The notes under the pieces are model-generated. The model ran no database searches. It was not told the DNA's origin and saw only the letters and a program-made list of their open reading frames with translations. The translations under genes and the position numbers were made by a program. A stretch of 64,000 bases of DNA, taken from contig JAGFCA010000005.1 of NCBI GenBank assembly GCA_022394755.1, forward strand, positions 158,313-222,312, given 5' to 3'. Positions 11,605-21,965 of this stretch are shown here, piece after piece (the first letter of the stretch is position 1; each line of letters starts with the position of its first letter). This DNA is from Candidatus Poribacteria bacterium (lineage in GTDB: Bacteria; Poribacteria; WGA-4E; WGA-3G).

Positions 11605-11640
11605 CTTGTCAAAACCTTATTTAGAAATGGGAAGACTATC

Positions 11641-11728
11641 AAAAGTGCATCCAAAAGTGTGTATATACGAATCATTACCACCTTCTAATTGTACCGATAT
11701 CCTATGCCGAAAAGGAATTTCATAAGAA
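11641..11728 (+). promoter_or_regulatory. Leader shared with the distal array member
   Basis: The sequence before the first array gene resembles 19824-19928 before the last one. Shared pieces are catccaaaa(a)tgtgta, acgaa(t/g)cattac and cgaaaaggaa near the start codon. Between the matching blocks the second leader carries an 18-bp tandem duplication. In both, the AAGGA is unusually far (about 12-13 nt) from the ATG. Conservation implies shared expression control or recent duplication of gene plus leader. Confidence 0.55.
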
Positions 11729-13267
11729 ATGGAAACATTATCAAATAAAATAAATCTCCATCTTGGCGATGACGCAGAAGTCCTCATCAAAGGGTTCATT
11801 GCACCGATTGAGGATATGAACCCCAACTTCCATGAAGAATGGTATGCGTTGGCAAATTTGCGCGTTGCTGAACCGGAAAAGATGTATTCTACTTCGGTTT
11901 TCCGATCATTCCTTCCAGATAAACCTGTTTCGGTTGCTGACTACTGGCAAATTGACGAACAAGGCGCGCTTGCCTTGCTGAAACAGTTTCAACGCAATCC
12001 GAATCTGGACATGCACATAAATGCCGGAGATTCCCAAGGTCTATGGGCATGTCTACATGCTTACAATGATGAACTCGCCAATATTATGTTCCGCATCCAT
12101 ACAGCATTTGCATTAGAGGATGGTTGGTTTACACCTTCTCAGTTAGCAGGAAATTTGGTTATTGACCGTATTAATAAGAGTGTAGCGTTTTTCCAAATGT
12201 GTGTTCCTGAAGGGACACTCTTTGATGTAAATTGGAAAAAACAGAAAGACGAACCTAATTACTATTATAGTGCAGGTGGTGGCGTTTGTCCTAAATTTGA
12301 ACTTGTTACAGAAAAGCATGATGTCTCTCAGGAAACCGTTTTTACAACATCAATTACACGTGAAGAGGCTGAATACATACTGATACAACGCTTCTATAAG
12401 TCCATGCAAATCAACTGGGTGCCATTTGAAGAAGCATTAGAAATATCACAAACACAACAGAAACCGATCCATGCCATTTCTGTCGATGGACCACTCTCAG
12501 ACGAAGCATGTTGAGGGAGCGGTAAAAACTTGAGGGCAGTTGTCCTCTCCGACGAACGAATCATTGAATTCTTGAATGAATATTTTATCAATATGTGGGT
12601 GCGTAATACCAAGCTTAGACGCTTACGCGATACAAACGGGTTTGGGGAAATGCCTCCATTGGTACGTACAATCATTGAGAACAAATGGCGTAGAGGTCCA
12701 GTAGATGCATGGGTTATATCTCCTGAACTTGAAGCGATAGGACATGTAGCAGTCAATACCTACCTTGAGGAAAATCGCCGTGAAGATGGAACATTAGAGA
12801 GCGAGAATTACCTCAGGTTTCTCGCTGATTCCTTAGAAGCAAAACTCCCTGGATTCGGGAACACTGTTCTCACACCTGAACAACCCACACAACAGATATT
12901 AGACGTTTTTCGCACTCCAGAATATGGACATCAAGACTACACGGTTGTCGTAATTGATACCACAGCGTTTGAAAACGGCGGTACACTCATTATGGATATT
13001 GAAGTGGGTAATGAAAAAGCGTATGGATCCTTCTTTCTGCTGGATGGTGTCCATAAACTTACCTTTGATGCTGTACACAAACGCCCGGAAGGAATAATGC
13101 TTGATGAGGCGCACGATATAGGTTGGTATGATCCTTGTGAAAAAGGACAGATGACACATCGTTTTGAACATGGACAACTCTATAAATTGGTTGCTATGGG
13201 ATGGGCATCTAATGAAAAAGGAAGTATCAACGCTTTTCAAGCAAGGATTTCAGTAGCGGAGAATTAA
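11729..13267 (+). CDS. Selenoprotein array member 1: thioredoxin-like protein with Cys-Sec motif
   Basis: If the TGA at 12512-12514 is read as selenocysteine (residue 262), this is one 512-residue protein. An N-terminal domain of unknown family (1-~225) has conserved APIEDM, YWQI and WACLHAYND motifs. A helix and the thioredoxin-like strand KPIHAISVDGPL follow, then C-Sec-G-S-G-K. Next comes the helix continuation LSDERIIEFLNE, the remaining Trx-like strands (~285-380), and a PPC-like beta-sandwich domain (~390-512). The Sec takes the place of the first Cys of CxxC, and the second is Gly. No signal peptide is seen, so it is probably cytoplasmic. The next gene starts 2 nt after the stop. Without recoding it would be two ORFs, the second lacking a good start. 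Confidence 0.82.
12532..12547 (+). promoter_or_regulatory. Bacterial SECIS-like hairpin of array member 1
   Basis: Starting 17 nt after the TGA, GAGGGC pairs with GTCCTC (one G-U) around the loop AGTT. Distance from TGA to loop is 23 nt. The loop has G at position 2, which fits the published bacterial SECIS rule (G in the first two loop bases, loop roughly 16-37 nt from UGA). The stem co-varies with the other array copies. Confidence 0.8.
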
Positions 13268-13268
13268 A

Positions 13269-13939
13269 ATGAAAACTTCACAAGACAAAATCACGCTAAA
13301 TCTTAATAATGATATTCAAATTTCTATCCACGGTGCCATCGCACCGATTGAGTACACACAATACAACTTCCATGTAGAATGGGACGAATTGGCGAACCTA
13401 CAGGTAGCTGAACCGGAAAAACGGTATCCAATCTCTGTATTTAATGCATTTCTACCTTCGGGATCCGTTTCGGTCGGTGAATGCTGGCAAATCAATGACG
13501 GTGTTATAGAATTACTAAGGCAGCTTCACACCAACCCAAACTTGAATTTGGACTGTAACAATGGGGATTCACTCGGTCTGTGGGCATGTCTACGTGCATA
13601 TAATGATGAGTATGTTGACATCGTGTTTCGAATTCATGCAGAATTCACACTAAATACTGGTAGATTTACAGCCTCACAATTGATATTAAAATCGGTAGAG
13701 AAAAAGGGGATGGTGAGTTTTATCTATTTAATGCAGAAGGTGAACTATCTACAGATGAAGAACCGTGTGATGCACTTGCTGTAACTTGGGGTGGACCAGA
13801 TGATGAATTACAGATTAAACACCAATTTGACCATGGTCAGATCTTTAGGTTAGGTGCATCAGGTTATTGGTACGAAGGAGAAATCTGTACAAACGCTTTT
13901 CTGACACAAATAACTATAGAGGAAAATAACAATGAATAA
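13269..13939 (+). pseudogene. Selenoprotein array member 2: deletion pseudogene lacking the Sec domain
   Basis: The first ~135 codons match the N-terminal domain of the array family (APIEYTQYNF, WACLRAYND, FRIHAEF). Near 13672-13685 the sequence jumps to the C-terminal beta-sandwich domain (IDIKIGREKGDGEFYLF and FRLGASG), which is in another frame. The nominal ORF therefore ends in 30 or so unrelated residues at 13784, while the domain remnant runs in frame 2 to a TAA at 13937-13939. The junction sequence cctcacaattga resembles both donor sites, so a short-homology deletion of about 0.9 kb fits. The end of this remnant carries the GAGG used by the next gene as ribosome-binding site. Confidence 0.85.
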
Positions 13940-15524
13940 ACCAACTAACAAAATTATCCTCAATCTTGATGGGGACGAAAAAGTAAACGTCAAAGGTGTT
14001 ATTGCACCGTTTGAATATGACTCAGCCGATTTTCACGTGGACTGGGACGAATTGGCGAACCTACGGGCTGCTGAACCGGAAAAGCAATATCCTGTGTCGG
14101 TCTTTCAATCTTTTCTCCCATCAGAATCGGTTTCAGTGGGTGAATGCTGGCAGATTCAAGAAGAAGACGCGCTAACATTGCTGCGACAACTCTCTCCACG
14201 TCCACAACTGAAACTACATATTAATTCGGGGGATCCTCGGCGTGCAATGTGGGCATGTCTACGTGCTTACAATGATGAATTTGCCGAGATTCTATTCCGT
14301 ATCCACGCACAATTCGTCATGAATCATGGCTGGTTGACCCCTTCACAATTTGCTGGACATTTGGTTATTGACCGGTTCCAAGAGGAGATCGTCTCCTTCA
14401 AGATGCATGTGCCTCAAACGACACTAAATTTTGATATCGGTTGGACAAACGAAGACAAGCGCACCGCTGCGGCTATCGGCTATTGCCCGAAAGTGGAACT
14501 CTGCGCGGGCATACAGCCTCAAAATGCCGAATTCGTCGCGTCAATCACGCAAGAGGAAGCGGAGGGCATACTAGCGTTGCAATTCTACGAATTCGAGAAA
14601 ATTAATTGGGTATCATTGGAAGAAGCCTTGGAGATGGCACCGGCACTGCAGAAACCGATTCATGCGATTTCAATAGATGGACCGCTTGCTGATGAATCCT
14701 GCTGAGGGAGTGGCAAAGGATTGAGAGCAGTTGAGCTCTCCGATGACCAGATCATAGCATTCTTGAACGAAAATTTTATCAATACGTGGGTACCCAATGC
14801 GGAATTAGGAAGGAGCATGAGTTTGCGAGAACCGATTGCAAGGCGACGTAAGCGCGAAGGTAAGACATTCGACACAAGCCACGCCTTAGCACAAACAATT
14901 ATGAAAGGCTGGAAAAAAGGTTCGCCGGTGGACTGTTTAGTTATATCGCATGAGTTTGAATTGATGGGTAGTTTAGATTACAATGAGTTCCCTGAGAACT
15001 TAGGAGAATTAGACGAAGAGACAGACGCATACCTGTTTTTTCTTGAGGCATCTTTGGAAGGAAAACGGCCTGGATTGGGTGACATTATCCTTACCCGTGA
15101 ACAGCCCTTGAAGGAGGCGGTAGAAACTTTTCGCACCACGGAGGTAGTGCATCAGGACTACACAGTTGTCGTAATTGACGTCACAGCCTTTGAAGATGGT
15201 GGCACGCTCACCATTGACATCCAGGTCGGTAGAGACGATGCAATAGGTATTTTCCATCTGCTTGACGGGGACAAAAAACTTCCGACTGAAAAAGTGCCAG
15301 ACGGTGTTGATCCGGAAGCATGGAAGAACCAACATGGTGAAGAATATATGAAGGCGTTTAGTGCCCTTGCCAAAGTGTGGGGTATATTCCCTGGTCAAAC
15401 AGGAAAAATTACTTACCAATTCGATCAAGGTAAACGCTTTAAACTGTGTGCAACAGGAGATCAATGGGGTGGAATAGGTGGCATAAACGCTTTTCGCGCA
15501 AAAATATCTGTAGAGGAAAACTGA
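13932..15524 (+). CDS. Selenoprotein array member 3: thioredoxin-like protein with Cys-Sec motif
   Basis: One 530-residue protein if TGA 14703-14705 is selenocysteine (residue 258). Domains are as in member 1: N-terminal domain with APFEYDSADF, GECWQI and WACLRAYND; linker helix NWVSLEEALE; thioredoxin-like strand KPIHAISIDGPLADES; redox motif C-Sec-G-S-G-K; helix LSDDQIIAFLNENF; then NAELGR and a basic segment typical of the family. A C-terminal PPC-like domain (HQDYTVVVIDVTAF ... INAFRAKIS) follows. GAGG lies 9 nt before the ATG, inside the end of the preceding pseudogene, which suggests translational coupling. The next gene begins 2 nt after the stop. Confidence 0.83.
14723..14740 (+). promoter_or_regulatory. 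Bacterial SECIS-like hairpin of array member 3
   Basis: GAGAGC and GCTCTC pair perfectly around loop AGTTGA, 17 nt after the TGA. Relative to members 1 and 4, two stem pairs have changed on both sides, keeping all pairing. The downstream residue here is Glu instead of Val, so the change is not explained by protein conservation. Confidence 0.82.
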
Positions 15525-15525
15525 C

Positions 15526-17151
15526 ATGGAAACCGTAATAAACAAAATCACCCTTAATCTTGTGGCGGACACTCAAGTCTCTGTCAAAGCCTTCATCGCA
15601 CCGATTGAGTACACACAATACAACTTCCATGTAGATTGGGACGAATTGGCAAATCTACAGGCTGCTGAACCAGTAAAGCAATATCCTGCTTCTGTCTTTC
15701 AATCTTTTCTACCGTTAGAATCGGTTGCGGTGGGAGAATGTTGGCAAATTCGGGAAGACAGCGTATTAACATTGCTAAAGCAACTCTATCCACGTCCACA
15801 ACTGAGACTTAAGGGTGATGACGGAGACTATAAAGGCATAGTTGCATGTTTAAGAGCCTACAATGATGATCTTGCTGACATTGTGTTCCGTATCCATGCC
15901 GAATTCATCATGGAGAATGGCAAGTTTACACCATCACAATTTGCTGGACATCTGGTTATTGACCGACACCAAAGGGAAGTCGTCTCTTTCAAGATGAACG
16001 TACCACAAACAACACTGAATTTCGATGCCGGTTGGAAACAAGAAAATGGGAACTGGTTTGCTGAGATCGGTTATTGTCCACGGATTGAACTTTGTTCTGG
16101 GGCATACCCTACTGATGTAGAATTCACGACAGAAATCACGCAAGAAGATGTAGAAAGTAAACTTATTTCGCATTACTACATGTTTCACAAAATTAACTGG
16201 GTATCGTTAGAGCAAGCGTTGGAGATAGCACCCGCGCAACAGAAGCCGATCCATGTTGTCTCATTAGATGGACCACTTTTTGACGAGTCGTGCTGAGGCA
16301 CCGGCAGAATCTTGAGGACAGGTGTCCTCTCTAAAAACAATATAATTGATTTTTTGAATGAAAACTTCATTAATACATGGGTAGAAAATGCAGAATTGGG
16401 ACGGACAGGAAGCCTGCAAGCACCAATTGCAAAAAGACGTGAACGGGAAGGAATATCCTTTAACACAAATCACTCTTTAGCAAAAAGTATTATGAAAGGA
16501 TGGGTAAAAGGTTCTCCGGTAGACTGTTTTGTTATATCACATGATTTTGAATTGATGGGTAGTGTCGACTTTAATGAGTTTCTTGACAACATGGAGAAAC
16601 CTGAAGATGAACCCGAAATGTATATGGTATTTCTCAAGGATTCTTTGAATGACAAACGACCCGGATTAGGCGACACTATCCTAACACCAGAACAACCTTC
16701 ACAGAATGTGTTAGACACCTTTCGCACACCAGAATTAGTGCATCAGGACTACACCGTTGTTTTCATTGATACCACTGCATTTCAGAATGGTGGCACCCTT
16801 ACTATTGATATCAACGTCGGTAAAGACAATGCAATAGGAATTTTTCAACTACTTGATGGAAGCAAGAAACTTCCGACTGAAAATGTGCCTGATGGCGTTG
16901 ATCCTGAAGCATGGAACAACCAAGATAGTGAAGAATATATGAAGGCGTTCGATGCCCTTGCAAAAGTGTGGGGTATATTCCCTGGACAAACAGGAAAAAT
17001 CGCTTACCAATTCGACCAAGGTAAACTTTTTAAACTGTGTGCAACTGGAGATCAATGGGGTGGAATAGGTGGGATAAACGCTTTCCATGCAACAGTTTCT
17101 GTGGAAACAAAGGATGGTAGAGATGAATCTATGAGTGAAACACTCGAATAA
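15526..17151 (+). CDS. Selenoprotein array member 4: thioredoxin-like protein with Cys-Sec motif
   Basis: One 541-residue protein if TGA 16294-16296 is selenocysteine (residue 257). Domain order matches member 3: N-terminal domain (APIEYTQYNF, GECWQI, VACLRAYND), helix NWVSLEQALE, strand KPIHVVSLDGPLFDES, C-Sec-G-T-G-R, helix IIDFLNENF, and a PPC-like domain ending NAFHATVSVE. It ends at a TAA (17149-17151), but the same frame then encodes a further PPC-like domain to 17577. A TAA may thus have truncated an originally longer protein like member 6. The stretch NAELGR plus the LPTENVPDGVDPEAW region is very close to member 3, indicating a recent duplication. Confidence 0.82.
16314..16329 (+). 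promoter_or_regulatory. Bacterial SECIS-like hairpin of array member 4
   Basis: GAGGAC and GTCCTC pair perfectly around loop AGGT (or 7 bp with a 2-nt loop), 17 nt after the TGA. The fifth pair is A-U here, G-U in member 1 and G-C in members 3 and 6. An Ala codon became Thr (GCA to ACA) while the pairing was improved. Confidence 0.82.
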
Positions 17152-17577
17152 AATGATAACACTTCAAAACCCATCTCACTGCCTATTAATGTTCTACTCA
17201 ACAAAAAGCGACCAGACAAAGAGATATTAGAAATCTTCCGAACACCAGAGTATGGTTATCAAGATTATACGGTTGTTAATATTGATACAACCGCTTTTGA
17301 GAGTGGGGGAATCCTCTCCATTGATATAAAGGTAGGCAATGCTGAACCTTCAGGTTCGTTTGACCTATTTGACGGTGAATCTAAACTACCAACTGAAGGT
17401 ATATCCTCTGAAGCACTCGCCTCTGCTTGGGATATTCAACCTGAGAAAACTGGTACAATACAGTATCATTTTGATGTAGGAAAACGTTTTAAGTTAGGCG
17501 CAACCGGTAATTGGTTTAGTGAAAAAGACAGTATAAATGCATTTCGTGCAAAAATCTCAGTAAAGGAAGTTGAATGA
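17152..17577 (+). pseudogene. Extra PPC-like domain cut off from array member 4 by a TAA
   Basis: Directly after the TAA of member 4, and in the same frame, the sequence encodes a linker and a complete PPC-like domain (YQDYTVVNIDTTAF, SGSFDLFDGESKLPTEG, FKLGATGNW, INAFRAKISV). It has no stop until TGA at 17575-17577. There is no convincing start codon with a ribosome-binding site. The intact equivalent is the second PPC-like domain of member 6. The last codons overlap the ATG of member 5 and supply its AAGGAA. Either the domain was lost by nonsense mutation, or it is reached by rare read-through. Confidence 0.72.
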
Positions 17578-19169
17578 ATACAGTATTAGACAGAATCACG
17601 TTATACCTTGATGGTGCTAAGAGTATATCGGTCAACGGTTTTATTGCACCCATAAAACATACCATCTCAAATTTCCATGTAGAGTGGGACGCATTAGCAA
17701 ATCTCTCTGTTGTTAACCCTGAGATGGAATATCCCCTATCTGTTTTCCAATCATTTATTCCCATAGAATCGGTTTCTGTTGGTGAATGTTGGGAAATAGA
17801 AGAATCTGGCGTGATGAAGCTACTTCAGCAATTACATCACACTCCCAACCTAAGAATGCATATTGATTATGGTGATTCACACGGGTTATGGGGATGTTTA
17901 CGAGCATGCAATGATAGGTATGCAGACATACAATTTCGTATTCATGCAGAATTTAAACTAAAGGATGGGTGGTTCACACCTTCAGAGTTTAGGGGAAATA
18001 TAATAATCGACAGACTTGAGGAAGATATACTGCACTTTAATATGTATGTTCCTGAAGGCACTGTGAACTTTGATGTAAATTGGAAAAAAGACAAAGATGC
18101 TTCCTATTCTATTACAGCTGCAGGGCTATGCCAACAAATGGAACTAACCGCTGGGATGCAGGAGAATATTAAAAACATTGAATATCCGCTTAGTATTACC
18201 GAAAAAGAAGCGAACCGTATCTTAAGCAAACAATTTTACAAATCAGAGCGAATTAACTGGGTACAAGCTGAGCATGCGATGGAGTTAGCAGAGACTCAGT
18301 GTAAACTCATTCATGTTATCTCTGTCGATGGTCCCTTGGCTGATGAGGCTTGCTCAGAGAGCGGTAAAGGTTTGAGGGCAGGTGTCCTCTCTAATGATAG
18401 AGTTATAGATTTCTTGAATGAAGATTTTATCAATATTTGGGTGTCCAATGTGGAGTTAGAACGTACACCTCGAAAAAAAGCATACATGGCAAAAAGGCAA
18501 AAGCGTGAATCCGATCAATTCAATAAAAACCACCCTTTGGCGAAATTTATAATGGCTGGTTGGAAAGAACATTCACCTGTCGATTGTTTAGTTATTGCGC
18601 CAGAAGGTGATGTGATGGGAAAACTTCCACTCAACGATTTCTTTGATGAATGTTATAAAAATAAACGTAAAGAGGAAGATGCCTACCTGCAGTTTCTAAA
18701 GGATTCGTTAGATGCAAAATTCCCCGGATTCGATGAGAATGTATCTGAATCTTTATTAACAGGTTCAGTAGTTATCCTCAATGAAGATAATCCTGAACAA
18801 GAAGTGATACACATCTATCGAACACCACGTTACGGATATCAAGATTACAATGTCATCACAATCGATACCACTGCATTTAAAGAGGGTGGTAGACTCACAA
18901 TAGACATAAAGGTTGGTATGGCAAAAGCCGGTGGTTCATTCGATCTGTTTGATGGTGATACAGAATTACCAACAAAAGGTTATCCAGATGGAGCAATCGC
19001 ATCTGCCTGGGATATTCCTACCGGACAAAAAGGTAAGATAGAATACCAATTTGAAGAAGGTATGGTCTTTAAACTCGGCGCTACCGGCACATGGTTCAGT
19101 GGTGCAGGAAACATAAATGCTTTTCATGCGAAAATCTCTGTAGATGCAGTAGAAACCGAAACAATGTAG
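17574..19169 (+). CDS. Array member 5: Cys-Ser variant of the selenoprotein family
   Basis: A continuous 531-residue protein that shows the intact architecture of the family without recoding. N-terminal domain (APIKHTISNF, GECWEI, WGCLRACND), helix NWVQAEHAME, strand KLIHVISVDGPLADEA, then C-S-E-S-G-K with Ser261 (TCA at 18354-18356) where the others have TGA. Next come LSNDRVIDFLNEDF, a basic segment and a PPC-like domain ending INAFHAKISV. Its existence argues that the TGA-split genes are single proteins. The retained hairpin downstream of the Ser codon suggests that it descends from a Sec form. Its start overlaps the end of the preceding domain remnant (ATGA). Confidence 0.88.
   Translation: MNTVLDRITLYLDGAKSISVNGFIAPIKHTISNFHVEWDALANLSVVNPEMEYPLSVFQSFIPIESVSVGECWEIEESGVMKLLQQLHHTPNLRMHIDYGDSHGLWGCLRACNDRYADIQFRIHAEFKLKDGWFTPSEFRGNIIIDRLEEDILHFNMYVPEGTVNFDVNWKKDKDASYSITAAGLCQQMELTAGMQENIKNIEYPLSITEKEANRILSKQFYKSERINWVQAEHAMELAETQCKLIHVISVDGPLADEACSESGKGLRAGVLSNDRVIDFLNEDFINIWVSNVELERTPRKKAYMAKRQKRESDQFNKNHPLAKFIMAGWKEHSPVDCLVIAPEGDVMGKLPLNDFFDECYKNKRKEEDAYLQFLKDSLDAKFPGFDENVSESLLTGSVVILNEDNPEQEVIHIYRTPRYGYQDYNVITIDTTAFKEGGRLTIDIKVGMAKAGGSFDLFDGDTELPTKGYPDGAIASAWDIPTGQKGKIEYQFEEGMVFKLGATGTWFSGAGNINAFHAKISVDAVETETM
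18374..18389 (+). other. Relic SECIS-like hairpin in member 5
   Basis: GAGGGC/GTCCTC around loop AGGT sits 17 nt after the TCA Ser codon, the same geometry as the SECIS-like hairpins of the TGA-bearing copies. It has no recoding job here. The most economical reading is a leftover from a Sec-containing ancestor. Confidence 0.65.
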
Positions 19170-19327
19170 TACTTGCGATTTGTAAATAAAGTTTGGATAA
19201 AGGCAAATTAAAATGATGTTTTCCTATGACAGATGTTATAATGTTACTTAACTTATGGACAGGGTTTTGTAATCAAAAACGGTATAGATATTAACGATAC
19301 CATTAATGCGATATAGAGGTGAGAGCC

Positions 19328-19642
19328 ATGCTTACTATCACGTTGGATGTACCTGGTGAACTTTCAACCCCACTTTCTATTTCCGGTTATAATCAAGAGA
19401 AACTGACTGAGGAGACAAAACGGTTGCTTGCAATATCTCTCTTTGACCGCAACATACTCTCTTTGGGGCAAGCTGCAAAATTAGCAGGACTACACTTATT
19501 GGATTTTATTCGACTTCTGGATCAGCAGGATATCCCGATCGCAGAATACGATGATGAGGAAATCCAACAGGAATTGAAAACTGTCGAATGCTTAATACAA
19601 CGTGAGTTTAATAATAGCGATGTGATCTTCATTTCTCCATAA
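19328..19642 (+). CDS. UPF0175 family small protein (antitoxin-like)
   Basis: A 104-residue protein. The pattern of a beta-rich N-terminus followed by LAISLFDRNILSLGQAAKLAGLH is typical of UPF0175: helix-turn-helix-like residues, then a helix FIRLLDQQDIP and an acidic tail. UPF0175 proteins are proposed antitoxins or regulators, often paired with PIN-domain toxins. No PIN-like gene is next to it. A GTG at 19319 is in frame, but GAGGTGA lies 5 nt before the ATG at 19328, which is the likelier start. It separates the first five array members from the sixth. Confidence 0.75.
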   Translation: MLTITLDVPGELSTPLSISGYNQEKLTEETKRLLAISLFDRNILSLGQAAKLAGLHLLDFIRLLDQQDIPIAEYDDEEIQQELKTVECLIQREFNNSDVIFISP

Positions 19643-19928
19643 ATTATCCACATTTAGACCCGGAAGGCGGGGAATGTCCAGGGAACGTCATAAGGCGTTC
19701 ATACCGTTGATTCGCGGTTTCCTAACCAAACCTAAAACATAATCGGACTTTTTAAACTCACCATAATACAAGAAAACAAGTAACCAATATAAGCAAGTTG
19801 ATAGCTATCGCTGATACCTCATAAGTACATCCAAAAATGTGTAACAACGAAGCATTACATCATTGTGATGCATTACATCATTGTGATGGCAATGGTATCC
19901 TATACCGAAAAGGAAGTTCTTAACGAAA
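19643..19928 (+). repeat. Intergenic repeat fragments and leader of array member 6
   Basis: The stretch around 19679-19722 contains a GC-richer block whose reverse complement shares ccgcgaatcaacggtatgaa with the 36985-37010 region. It is therefore a dispersed repeat. Further on, cattacatcattgtgatg is duplicated exactly at 19853-19870 and 19871-19888. The 19824-19928 leader resembles the leader of member 1 (11641-11728). No gene is seen. Confidence 0.6.
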
Positions 19929-21965
19929 ATGAAAACTTTCAACGACAAAATTACACTTGATCTTGACAGTGATGCACAAGTGTTAGTCAAAGGCTTTATC
20001 GCTCCAATTGAATACACCCAATACAATCACCACGTCGATTGGGATGAATTGGCAAATCTAAAAGCTGCTGAACCCGAGAGACAATATCCTACCTCTATTT
20101 TTCATGCATTTTTGCCACAGAATCCGGTTTCGGTAGGCGCTTGCTGGCAGATTGAAGAAAAAGGCATATTAACACTGCTGCGACAACTCAGTCCAAATCC
20201 ACAATTGGAGTTGGATGTTGCTGTGGATGATTCTTACGGTTTATGGGCATGTCTGCGCGCCTACAATGATGTGTTTGCTGAGATTCTGTTTCGTATCCAT
20301 GCGGAATTCGTTTTAGAAAAAGGTTGGTTTGCGCCATCGCAGTTTGCTGGGAATGTGGTTATTGACCGATTAGAAAAGAAAGTTTCCGCTTTCAAGATGC
20401 ACGTTCCGGATGCCACACTAAACTTTGATGCACGATGGAAATTTAGAGATGGAATCTGCGTTACGGACATTGGGTATTGCCCAAAAATGGAACTCTTTGC
20501 TGGTACACAAGGTATTTTGCAAGATACTAAATTCACGGAAGCAATCACCCAAGAAGAAGCATTACAAACACTGATGTTACGTTTTTATAAGTCAGCACAG
20601 ATTAACTGGGTATCACTGGAGGAAGCCTTAGAATTAGCACCTGCATTACAGAAACCGATTCACGCCATTTCATCAGGTGGTCCACTGGCAGACGAATCGT
20701 GTTGAGGGAGTGGCAAAAGCCTGAGAGCAGTTGCTCTCTCTGATGATCAAAACATTGAATACCTTAATAACAATTTCATCAACACTTGGGTGGCAGATGC
20801 TGAATTAGGACGTATCCAAAGTTTGAGGGAACCGATTGCTAAAAGGCGTGAGCGCGAAGGTAAGACGTTTGATACAACGCGCCCCTTAGCACAAGCAATT
20901 ATAAATGGATGGAAGACCGGATCGAAAAAAGGCTCACCCGTCGATTGCTTCGTCATATCACCAGAGTTTGAATTGATGGGTAGACTGCTTGTCAATGAAT
21001 TCTTCTACGACAATTGGGATAAATCTAAACTCCGAGACGAGGAGAGTTACCTTATATTTCTCAAGGAGTCCTTGGAGGGGAAGCAACCCGGATTGGGGAA
21101 CATCATTCTAAACAGTGAAGAACCTTCTCAGAATGTCTTTGATGTTTTCCGAACACCAATAGTGGGTTATCAGGATTACACTGTAGTCGTCATTGATACA
21201 AGACCGTTTGAAAATGGTGGAACGCTAACCATTGACATTGAAACCGGTAGAGCCGATGCTGAGGGAAACTTCTATTTAGTTGAGGGTGATAACGATCTCC
21301 CAACAGCAGAACGAGTAACTAAACACATGGTACTTGCTATGAAATGGCTCGAACCCGATGAGACTGGACAAATCACACATCGTTTTGACCGGGGACAGTT
21401 TTTTAAGTTGGGGGCAACCGGAGTTCACAGTTGGAGTGAGAAAGGTAGTATGAACGCTTTCAAAGCAAGAATATCTGTAGAGGAATATCCACAAGTAGAA
21501 TCCATAAATAAAGAGGACACTGAATCGGATAGAAACATCTCAGAAGAGTCATTAAACGAGTTGAGTCTTATACTTAATAGGACACAGCCATCTCAGGAGA
21601 TATTAGACACTTTTCGAGCACCAGGTGACGGTTATCAGGATTATACTGTCGTCAATATTGATACGACTGCGTTTGAAGACGGTGGCACGCTAATTATAAA
21701 TATCAAGGTCGGCAATACTGACACCTCCGGTTCGTTTGATCTCTTTGATGGTGATGCCAAACTGCCGACAGAAGGTTATCCCGATGACGCTCTTAAATCC
21801 GCGTGGGAGATCGAACCCGGTAAAACAGCAACAATCAACCATAATTTTGAACGTGGTAAAGCCTTTAAACTGGGTGCTACCGGGGATTGGCAAAGTAAGA
21901 AGGGCAGTATAAACGCTTTTCAGGCAAAAATATCTGTGGAACAAATTGAGATGAAAGGTATATAA
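19929..21965 (+). CDS. Selenoprotein array member 6: thioredoxin-like protein with Cys-Sec motif and two PPC-like domains
   Basis: One 678-residue protein if TGA 20703-20705 is selenocysteine (residue 259). N-terminal domain (APIEYTQYNH, GACWQI, WACLRAYND), helix NWVSLEEALE, strand KPIHAISSGGPLADES, C-Sec-G-S-G-K, LNNNFINTW, NAELGR-like ADAELGR, then two tandem PPC-like domains (about 400-520 and 545-675). The second half on its own would begin only at an internal ATG (20790), after the most conserved part of the thioredoxin-like domain. That makes independent translation unlikely. It has its own leader copied from member 1 and is separated from the array by UPF0175. Confidence 0.83.
20723..20738 (+). 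promoter_or_regulatory. Bacterial SECIS-like hairpin of array member 6
   Basis: GAGAGC pairs perfectly with GCTCTC around loop AGTT, 17 nt after the TGA. It has the stem of member 3 with a different loop length. G is at loop position 2, as in all other copies. Confidence 0.82.

Follow-up and report, generated by a model that had tools for sequence, protein, structure and literature searches.

SELENON-like genes with a predicted selenocysteine codon in tandem in a Candidatus Poribacteria bacterium

The window analyzed here is a stretch of 64,000 nucleotides of contig JAGFCA010000005.1, which belongs to the 5.19-Mb draft genome (228 contigs) of a Candidatus Poribacteria bacterium (GCA_022394755.1). 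Five paralogous genes lie in tandem on its forward strand. The original prediction, made from the DNA letters alone, described them as a family of proteins with selenocysteine (Sec), and it placed all five loci correctly. Four of the genes have a single in-frame TGA at one shared codon, within C-TGA-G-[ST]-G-[KR], while the fifth is an unbroken frame that reads C-S-E-S-G-K at the same place. They are called SELENON-like here after selenoprotein N (SELENON), with which they are compared below.

11729..13267, + strand: SELENON-like copy 1, predicted Sec codon TGA at 12512-12514
13932..15524, + strand: SELENON-like copy 2, predicted Sec codon TGA at 14703-14705; the terminal stop is also TGA
15526..17151, + strand: SELENON-like copy 3, predicted Sec codon TGA at 16294-16296
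17574..19169, + strand: SELENON-like copy 4, non-Sec, TCA (Ser) at 18354-18356 followed by Glu; open over 531 residues
19929..21965, + strand: SELENON-like copy 5, 678 residues, PPC-like C-terminal domain repeated, predicted Sec codon TGA at 20703-20705

The site is highly conserved, far more so than by chance. TGA is found in 191 of the 194 distinct contexts taken from the window and from fetched related Poribacteria loci; two of the 194 are truncated repeats of genes of the window. Of the remaining three, two have TCA (a single gene of the window, present in two records) and one has GGA. Cys precedes the TGA in all 191 contexts, with Ser or Ala before it and, in a few contexts, Gly; the four residues that follow are GSGK (151), GTGK (17), ASGK (13), GTGR (8) or ANGK (2). 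Protein similarity continues through the TGA, as had been claimed, with a mean pairwise identity among 39 diverse members of 0.77 over residues 241-260 and 0.68 over residues 261-280. The ratio of nonsynonymous to synonymous substitution rates (dN/dS), calculated for 237 pairs of 80-97% identity, has medians of 0.19 before the site and 0.16 after it, where the maximum is 0.34. By these values, purifying selection is no weaker downstream of the TGA than upstream. Homologues with a true stop at the site had been named as a finding that would speak against selenocysteine; of the 36 hits that do not cover the site, none terminates there with TAA or TAG.

Protein searches showed which residues can replace the predicted selenocysteine. 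A first profile search, run against 5.8 billion proteins, gave 531 hits; among the 120 listed, 14 relatives span the site, with Gly in 11, Trp in two and Thr in one; in two of these 14 non-Sec proteins the preceding Cys is replaced as well, by Ser (P0012) or Gly (P0016). The matches listed from a second search, for which a distant Sec paralogue was the query, are mostly N-terminal halves: 99 of the 119 new proteins stop at [DANT]ESC, directly before the site, and one, P0127, spans it with Gly. A third search reached beyond Poribacteria and included P0344 (a Planctomycetes record), P0258 (source name 'selenoprotein N') and P0256, a full-length distant homologue with Cys at the site. The non-Sec copies have Gly, Ser, Thr or Trp at the site, and a single distant homologue has Cys. 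In the Ser copy of the window both the Sec and the next Gly are changed, to Ser and Glu, and the hairpin described below and the reading frame are retained; this copy may represent a recent loss of Sec or a non-catalytic binding form.

A hairpin follows the site in all five genes:

12532..12547, + strand: hairpin of copy 1, GAGGGC-AGTT-GTCCTC
14723..14740, + strand: hairpin of copy 2, GAGAGC-AGTTGA-GCTCTC
16314..16329, + strand: hairpin of copy 3, GAGGAC-AGGT-GTCCTC
18374..18389, + strand: hairpin retained in Ser copy 4, GAGGGC-AGGT-GTCCTC
20723..20738, + strand: hairpin of copy 5, GAGAGC-AGTT-GCTCTC

In a gap-free alignment, positions 20-25 after the T of the TGA pair with positions 30-35, and the loop is AGGU or AGUU. 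The model of the bacterial selenocysteine insertion sequence (SECIS), as given in the available text of PMC13188914, consists of a hairpin 16-37 nt after the UGA with a stem of 4-16 bp, a loop of 3-9 nt, a G within the first two loop positions and a minimum free energy of at most -7.5. All 168 distinct full-length TGA copies have this geometry, 99.4% of them fall within the energy limit over 45 nt, and 131 share a spacing of 23, a loop of 4 and a stem of 6. A strong stem is present at the site in 92.3% of cases versus 3.9% and 8.6% in two controls, and it follows only 4.8% of 63 terminal TGA stops of family genes. Codon choice in the hairpin region is nearly fixed, with Arg written as AGR in 168/168 copies (27.5% elsewhere) and Leu as CTC in 162/168 (18.3% elsewhere). 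Among 114 distinct sequences, 16 cells had changed on both sides of a pair versus 3.5 in shuffles, a number reached in 0 of 500 shuffles. Unpaired cells in the main register were 15 at pair 9-18, nine at 10-17, three at 11-16 and one at 6-21; some out-of-register copies pair two bases later around a 6-nt loop, like window copy 2. Three distant Sec paralogues fold into a stem of 7 bp whose loop contains GGUC.

The original prediction had asked whether the genome carries the genes for selenocysteine insertion, and all of them were found: the tRNA-Sec gene (selC), selB adjoining it, selA and selD. The selD gene (G000:C76:62115-63041) itself has one in-frame TGA, in C-A-G-U-A-S-K, followed by a short hairpin. 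Across Poribacteria, selA is present in 71 of 84 genomes and tRNA-Sec in 73; among the 64 that bear the family, the numbers are 56 and 57, and 60 have at least one of the two. SelA and SelB are described as common in sponge symbiont bins from various phyla in the part of PMC5649159 available.

The source name of P0258 led to a comparison with human SELENON. All 39 family members examined match the human sequence in BLASTP with E values from 5e-27 to 1e-43, while reversed sequences gave 2.8 or worse. Identity is 25-31% over about 250-450 columns, and human U462 is aligned to the family TGA codon. The matched human span begins at residues 153-255 and ends at residues 490-588, so that in 39/39 members the homology covers the domain before the Sec and runs through the Sec domain. 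The original prediction had called the N-terminal domain unknown; the domain before the Sec is homologous to that of SELENON. The C-U-G-S-G-[KR] redox motif and the thioredoxin-like fold of the Sec domain are further likenesses. The proposed arrangement of a thioredoxin-like Sec domain followed by PPC-like C-terminal domains was borne out.

There are also clear differences from SELENON. The family adds one or more PPC-like C-terminal domains and is present in many tandem copies per genome. A type II membrane anchor like that of SELENON was not found in the five window copies, whose highest 17-residue hydropathy is 0.97-1.22 versus 2.25 for the human control. Animal SELENON owes its calcium sensing to an EF-hand. 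Since neither EF-hand (see below) nor anchor was found, the proteins are better called SELENON-like homologues than SELENON in the strict sense. The SECIS-like hairpin lies within the reading frame, unlike the SECIS of the animal SELENON gene, which is located in the 3′ untranslated region (PMC12839072, available portion).

Other proteins share parts of this picture. In DsbH, AGR and ERp18-19 the thioredoxin-fold motif is CxxC, whereas the second-Cys place is Gly in 21/21 aligned family pieces, as the original prediction had noted. An adjacent Cys-Sec followed by Gly also occurs in thioredoxin reductase (Gly-Cys-Sec-Gly), but there the pair sits on a mobile C-terminal tail, whereas in the family it is inside a thioredoxin fold. 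The available text of PMC12839072 likens GCUG of thioredoxin reductase to SCUG of SELENON. Bacterial Sec proteins such as the Trx7/PDZ selenoprotein (NF041199), SaoB (CUxxT) and SaoL, some with a CU motif, are comparable and are catalogued with other CU selenoproteins in PMC13188914, as far as that text was available. None of their models matched the family: the full family proteins had no NCBIfam match below E 0.16, the domain pieces had single hits at chance level (best E 0.0083), and six distant homologues had no match.

If the TGA were a true stop, the genes would be split or decaying and the N-terminal half alone would be made. Public gene calls agree with such a reading, with 108 of the 113 new hits of the third search ending at the residue before the site, and TGA often serves as the terminal stop of family genes (63/170). 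The fact that TGA terminates genes normally speaks, in turn, against its standing for a different amino acid (Trp or Gly) through a reassigned code or a suppressor tRNA. The latter idea draws on the Gly, Trp and Thr residues of the 14 site-spanning relatives, but it has to face the SECIS-like hairpin after the site, selC in the genome, the Cys of P0256 and the Sec of human SELENON at this position. A true stop, for its part, is at odds with the near-uniform TGA, the low dN/dS downstream, the forced codons and covariation beyond the site, the full-length homologues with a sense codon there, and the presence of selA, selB, selC and selD. Both explanations are highly improbable, and selenocysteine decoding of the family's TGA is, judged from these sequences, very likely.

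The function could also be another one. If the protein bound or detoxified metals or organometals, the vicinal Cys-Sec would be a soft-metal site and not the center of a disulfide reductase. CU motifs are found in organometallic selenoproteins such as SaoL (available part of the PMC13188914 table), but homology and fold point to the thioredoxin folds of SELENON and DsbH/AGR, and inspection of the open reading frame list of the window recognized no metal-resistance gene. We consider this assignment unlikely. We hold with good confidence, on sequence comparison, that the five tandem genes are SELENON homologues, that in four of them the TGA at the SELENON Sec position would be read as Sec, likely steered by the hairpin, and that their products would act as thioredoxin-fold reductases through a neighboring Cys-Sec pair.

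Several observations weigh against this conclusion. The loosest hairpin geometry is also found at 62% of other positions, so that only stem strength, codons and covariation are informative, and the minimum-energy fold of the 45 nt of window copy 1 is another pairing and not the hairpin. A few of the copies listed have more than one stop (one TGA and one TAA in G036, two TGA each in G031 and G045). Eight of the 64 family-bearing genomes have no selA, seven have no tRNA-Sec and four have neither (G029, G032, G059 and G060); these four are drafts that are 73-96% complete, G060 being 96%, and the missing genes are probably assembly gaps. The Pfam match to Thioredox_DsbH (PF03190) is weak, with 4/21 domain pieces and a best E of 0.019. 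No SELENON EF-hand was present among the Pfam matches (E up to 1) of 39/39 members, and the human alignments start downstream of that region. Finally, the human SELENON query was checked only against printed residues. The offset between human isoforms we take to be 34 residues. Within the available portions of the papers, the length of 590, Sec462 and Arg466 agree with PMC12839072, and after the offset Cys461/Sec462 and Cys142 correspond to Cys427/Sec428 and Cys108 in PMC7474598, as does Asn238 to Asn204 in PMC8584023, while the four glycosylation sites of PMC12839072 are off by one.

In the mechanism that we propose, Sec would be inserted by SelA, SelB, SelC and SelD and would occupy the first-Cys position of a CxxC of the DsbH/AGR type. 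It would attack a substrate disulfide, or another oxidized group, and Cys257 (numbering of the copy at 13932) would resolve the mixed selenosulfide, a role given to it since Gly stands in place of the usual second Cys. For animal SELENON, position 428 is treated as the attacking residue and a C427S mutant was used to trap partners (PMC7474598, available text). By this analogy, a cycle in which Sec attacks and Cys resolves appears to be the most economical reading. The N-terminal domain and the PPC-like beta-sandwich may choose the substrate or position the protein. The window copies look cytoplasmic. An N-terminal, signal-peptide-like hydrophobic stretch is found in 31/170 family copies (for example L062, L072:5917, L076, L083 and L096), so some Sec products may be exported.

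The family is widespread in Poribacteria. A family-profile scan of named genomes gave 104 relatives, of which the best 80 represent 72 distinct loci, 72/72 in Poribacteria metagenome-assembled genomes; by profile search the family is present in 64/84 genomes and 6/21 genera of the phylum. Matched stretches per genome, partial ones included, number up to at least 18, and the single-contig chromosome OY282374.1 holds at least eight TGA copies. Related Poribacteria proteins carry the module in other architectures. P0227-P0241 are C-terminal pieces in which the remainder of the Sec-thioredoxin domain is joined to TlpA/AhpC-type redoxin domains (Pfam labels), and a similar fusion occurs at L056 around 871 on the - strand. 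P0201 combines the Sec module with an ECF sigma factor that has a membrane stretch. All four loci that match P0201 over the whole length (L132, L133, L134 and L135, in G076, G063, G073 and G064, respectively) have a single TGA at the site in an open frame of 695-709 codons, which encodes the sigma factor, the membrane stretch and the SELENON-like domain together; L133, the only one folded, has the same SECIS-like hairpin after the TGA. This fusion may be a redox switch for transcription that is based on selenium.

The family is easily overlooked because gene callers end their predictions at the TGA. No report of a bacterial SELENON was found in the open-access literature searched. The available parts of PMC3473315 and PMC13188914 name few selenoprotein families common to bacteria and eukaryotes and do not list SELENON, and no SELENON-type family was present in NCBIfam 20 or in the available part of the 119-family prokaryote selenoprotein table of PMC13188914. 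The original interpretation, with its claim of a new family, is supported in part: with 39/39 members matching SELENON the family is not new in kind, but the setting and the architecture are. Beside the known members in animals and algae, the SELENON family likely includes a large branch in bacteria. In humans, SELENON is a muscular dystrophy gene, and the bacterial homologues could give insight into the origin of its family. Being soluble, they offer material for crystallization and assay, in which the Cys-Sec mechanism can be tested apart from calcium; PDB sequence searches gave no related entry, and SELENON was without a solved structure as of 2020 (PMC7474598, available text). Algal SELENON is almost exclusively in the Sec form (PMC7539508, available text). 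A bolder idea, which we regard as rather doubtful, is that SELENON was a bacterial invention. The Poribacteria superfamily would then be a duplicable selenium redox module (soluble, exported, TlpA-joined, or an ECF-sigma-joined redox switch), animal and algal SELENON would be one branch with an added calcium sensor, and the UGA-adjacent recoding hairpin of animals would be a relic of the bacterial SECIS.

The cluster contains further pieces of the family, of which the remnant and the orphan domain were absent from the original prediction:

11620..11728, + strand: conserved leader of copy 1, similar to leaders of other family genes
13269..13927, + strand: remnant copy without the Sec region, matching residues 1-139 and 440-526 of P0001
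17152..17573, + strand: orphan C-terminal domain of the PPC-like type, located between copies 3 and 4; the match at G000:C82:175464-175886 has 56% identity to P0001 residues 387-527
19810..19928, + strand: conserved leader of copy 5, similar to leaders of other family genes

The remnant keeps about 139 N-terminal residues together with part of the C-terminal domain. The repeat in copy 5 is a second match to residues 379-528 (contig coordinates 179816-180265), and beyond the window the contig carries a sixth TGA copy (G000:C82:244325-245902). The leader that precedes family genes is about 105 nt long and reads AAGTGCATCC...TGTATAAG...GGTATCCTATACCGAAAAGGAA. Alignment of the two window leaders with 13 from other loci showed 38 positions invariant across the 15 copies, and there were 18 distinct core matches. 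Covariation was looked for in the aligned copies and none was found; the leader is perhaps a promoter or a regulator site. A gene for a UPF0175 family protein (Pfam E 6e-19) lies between copies at 19319-19642.

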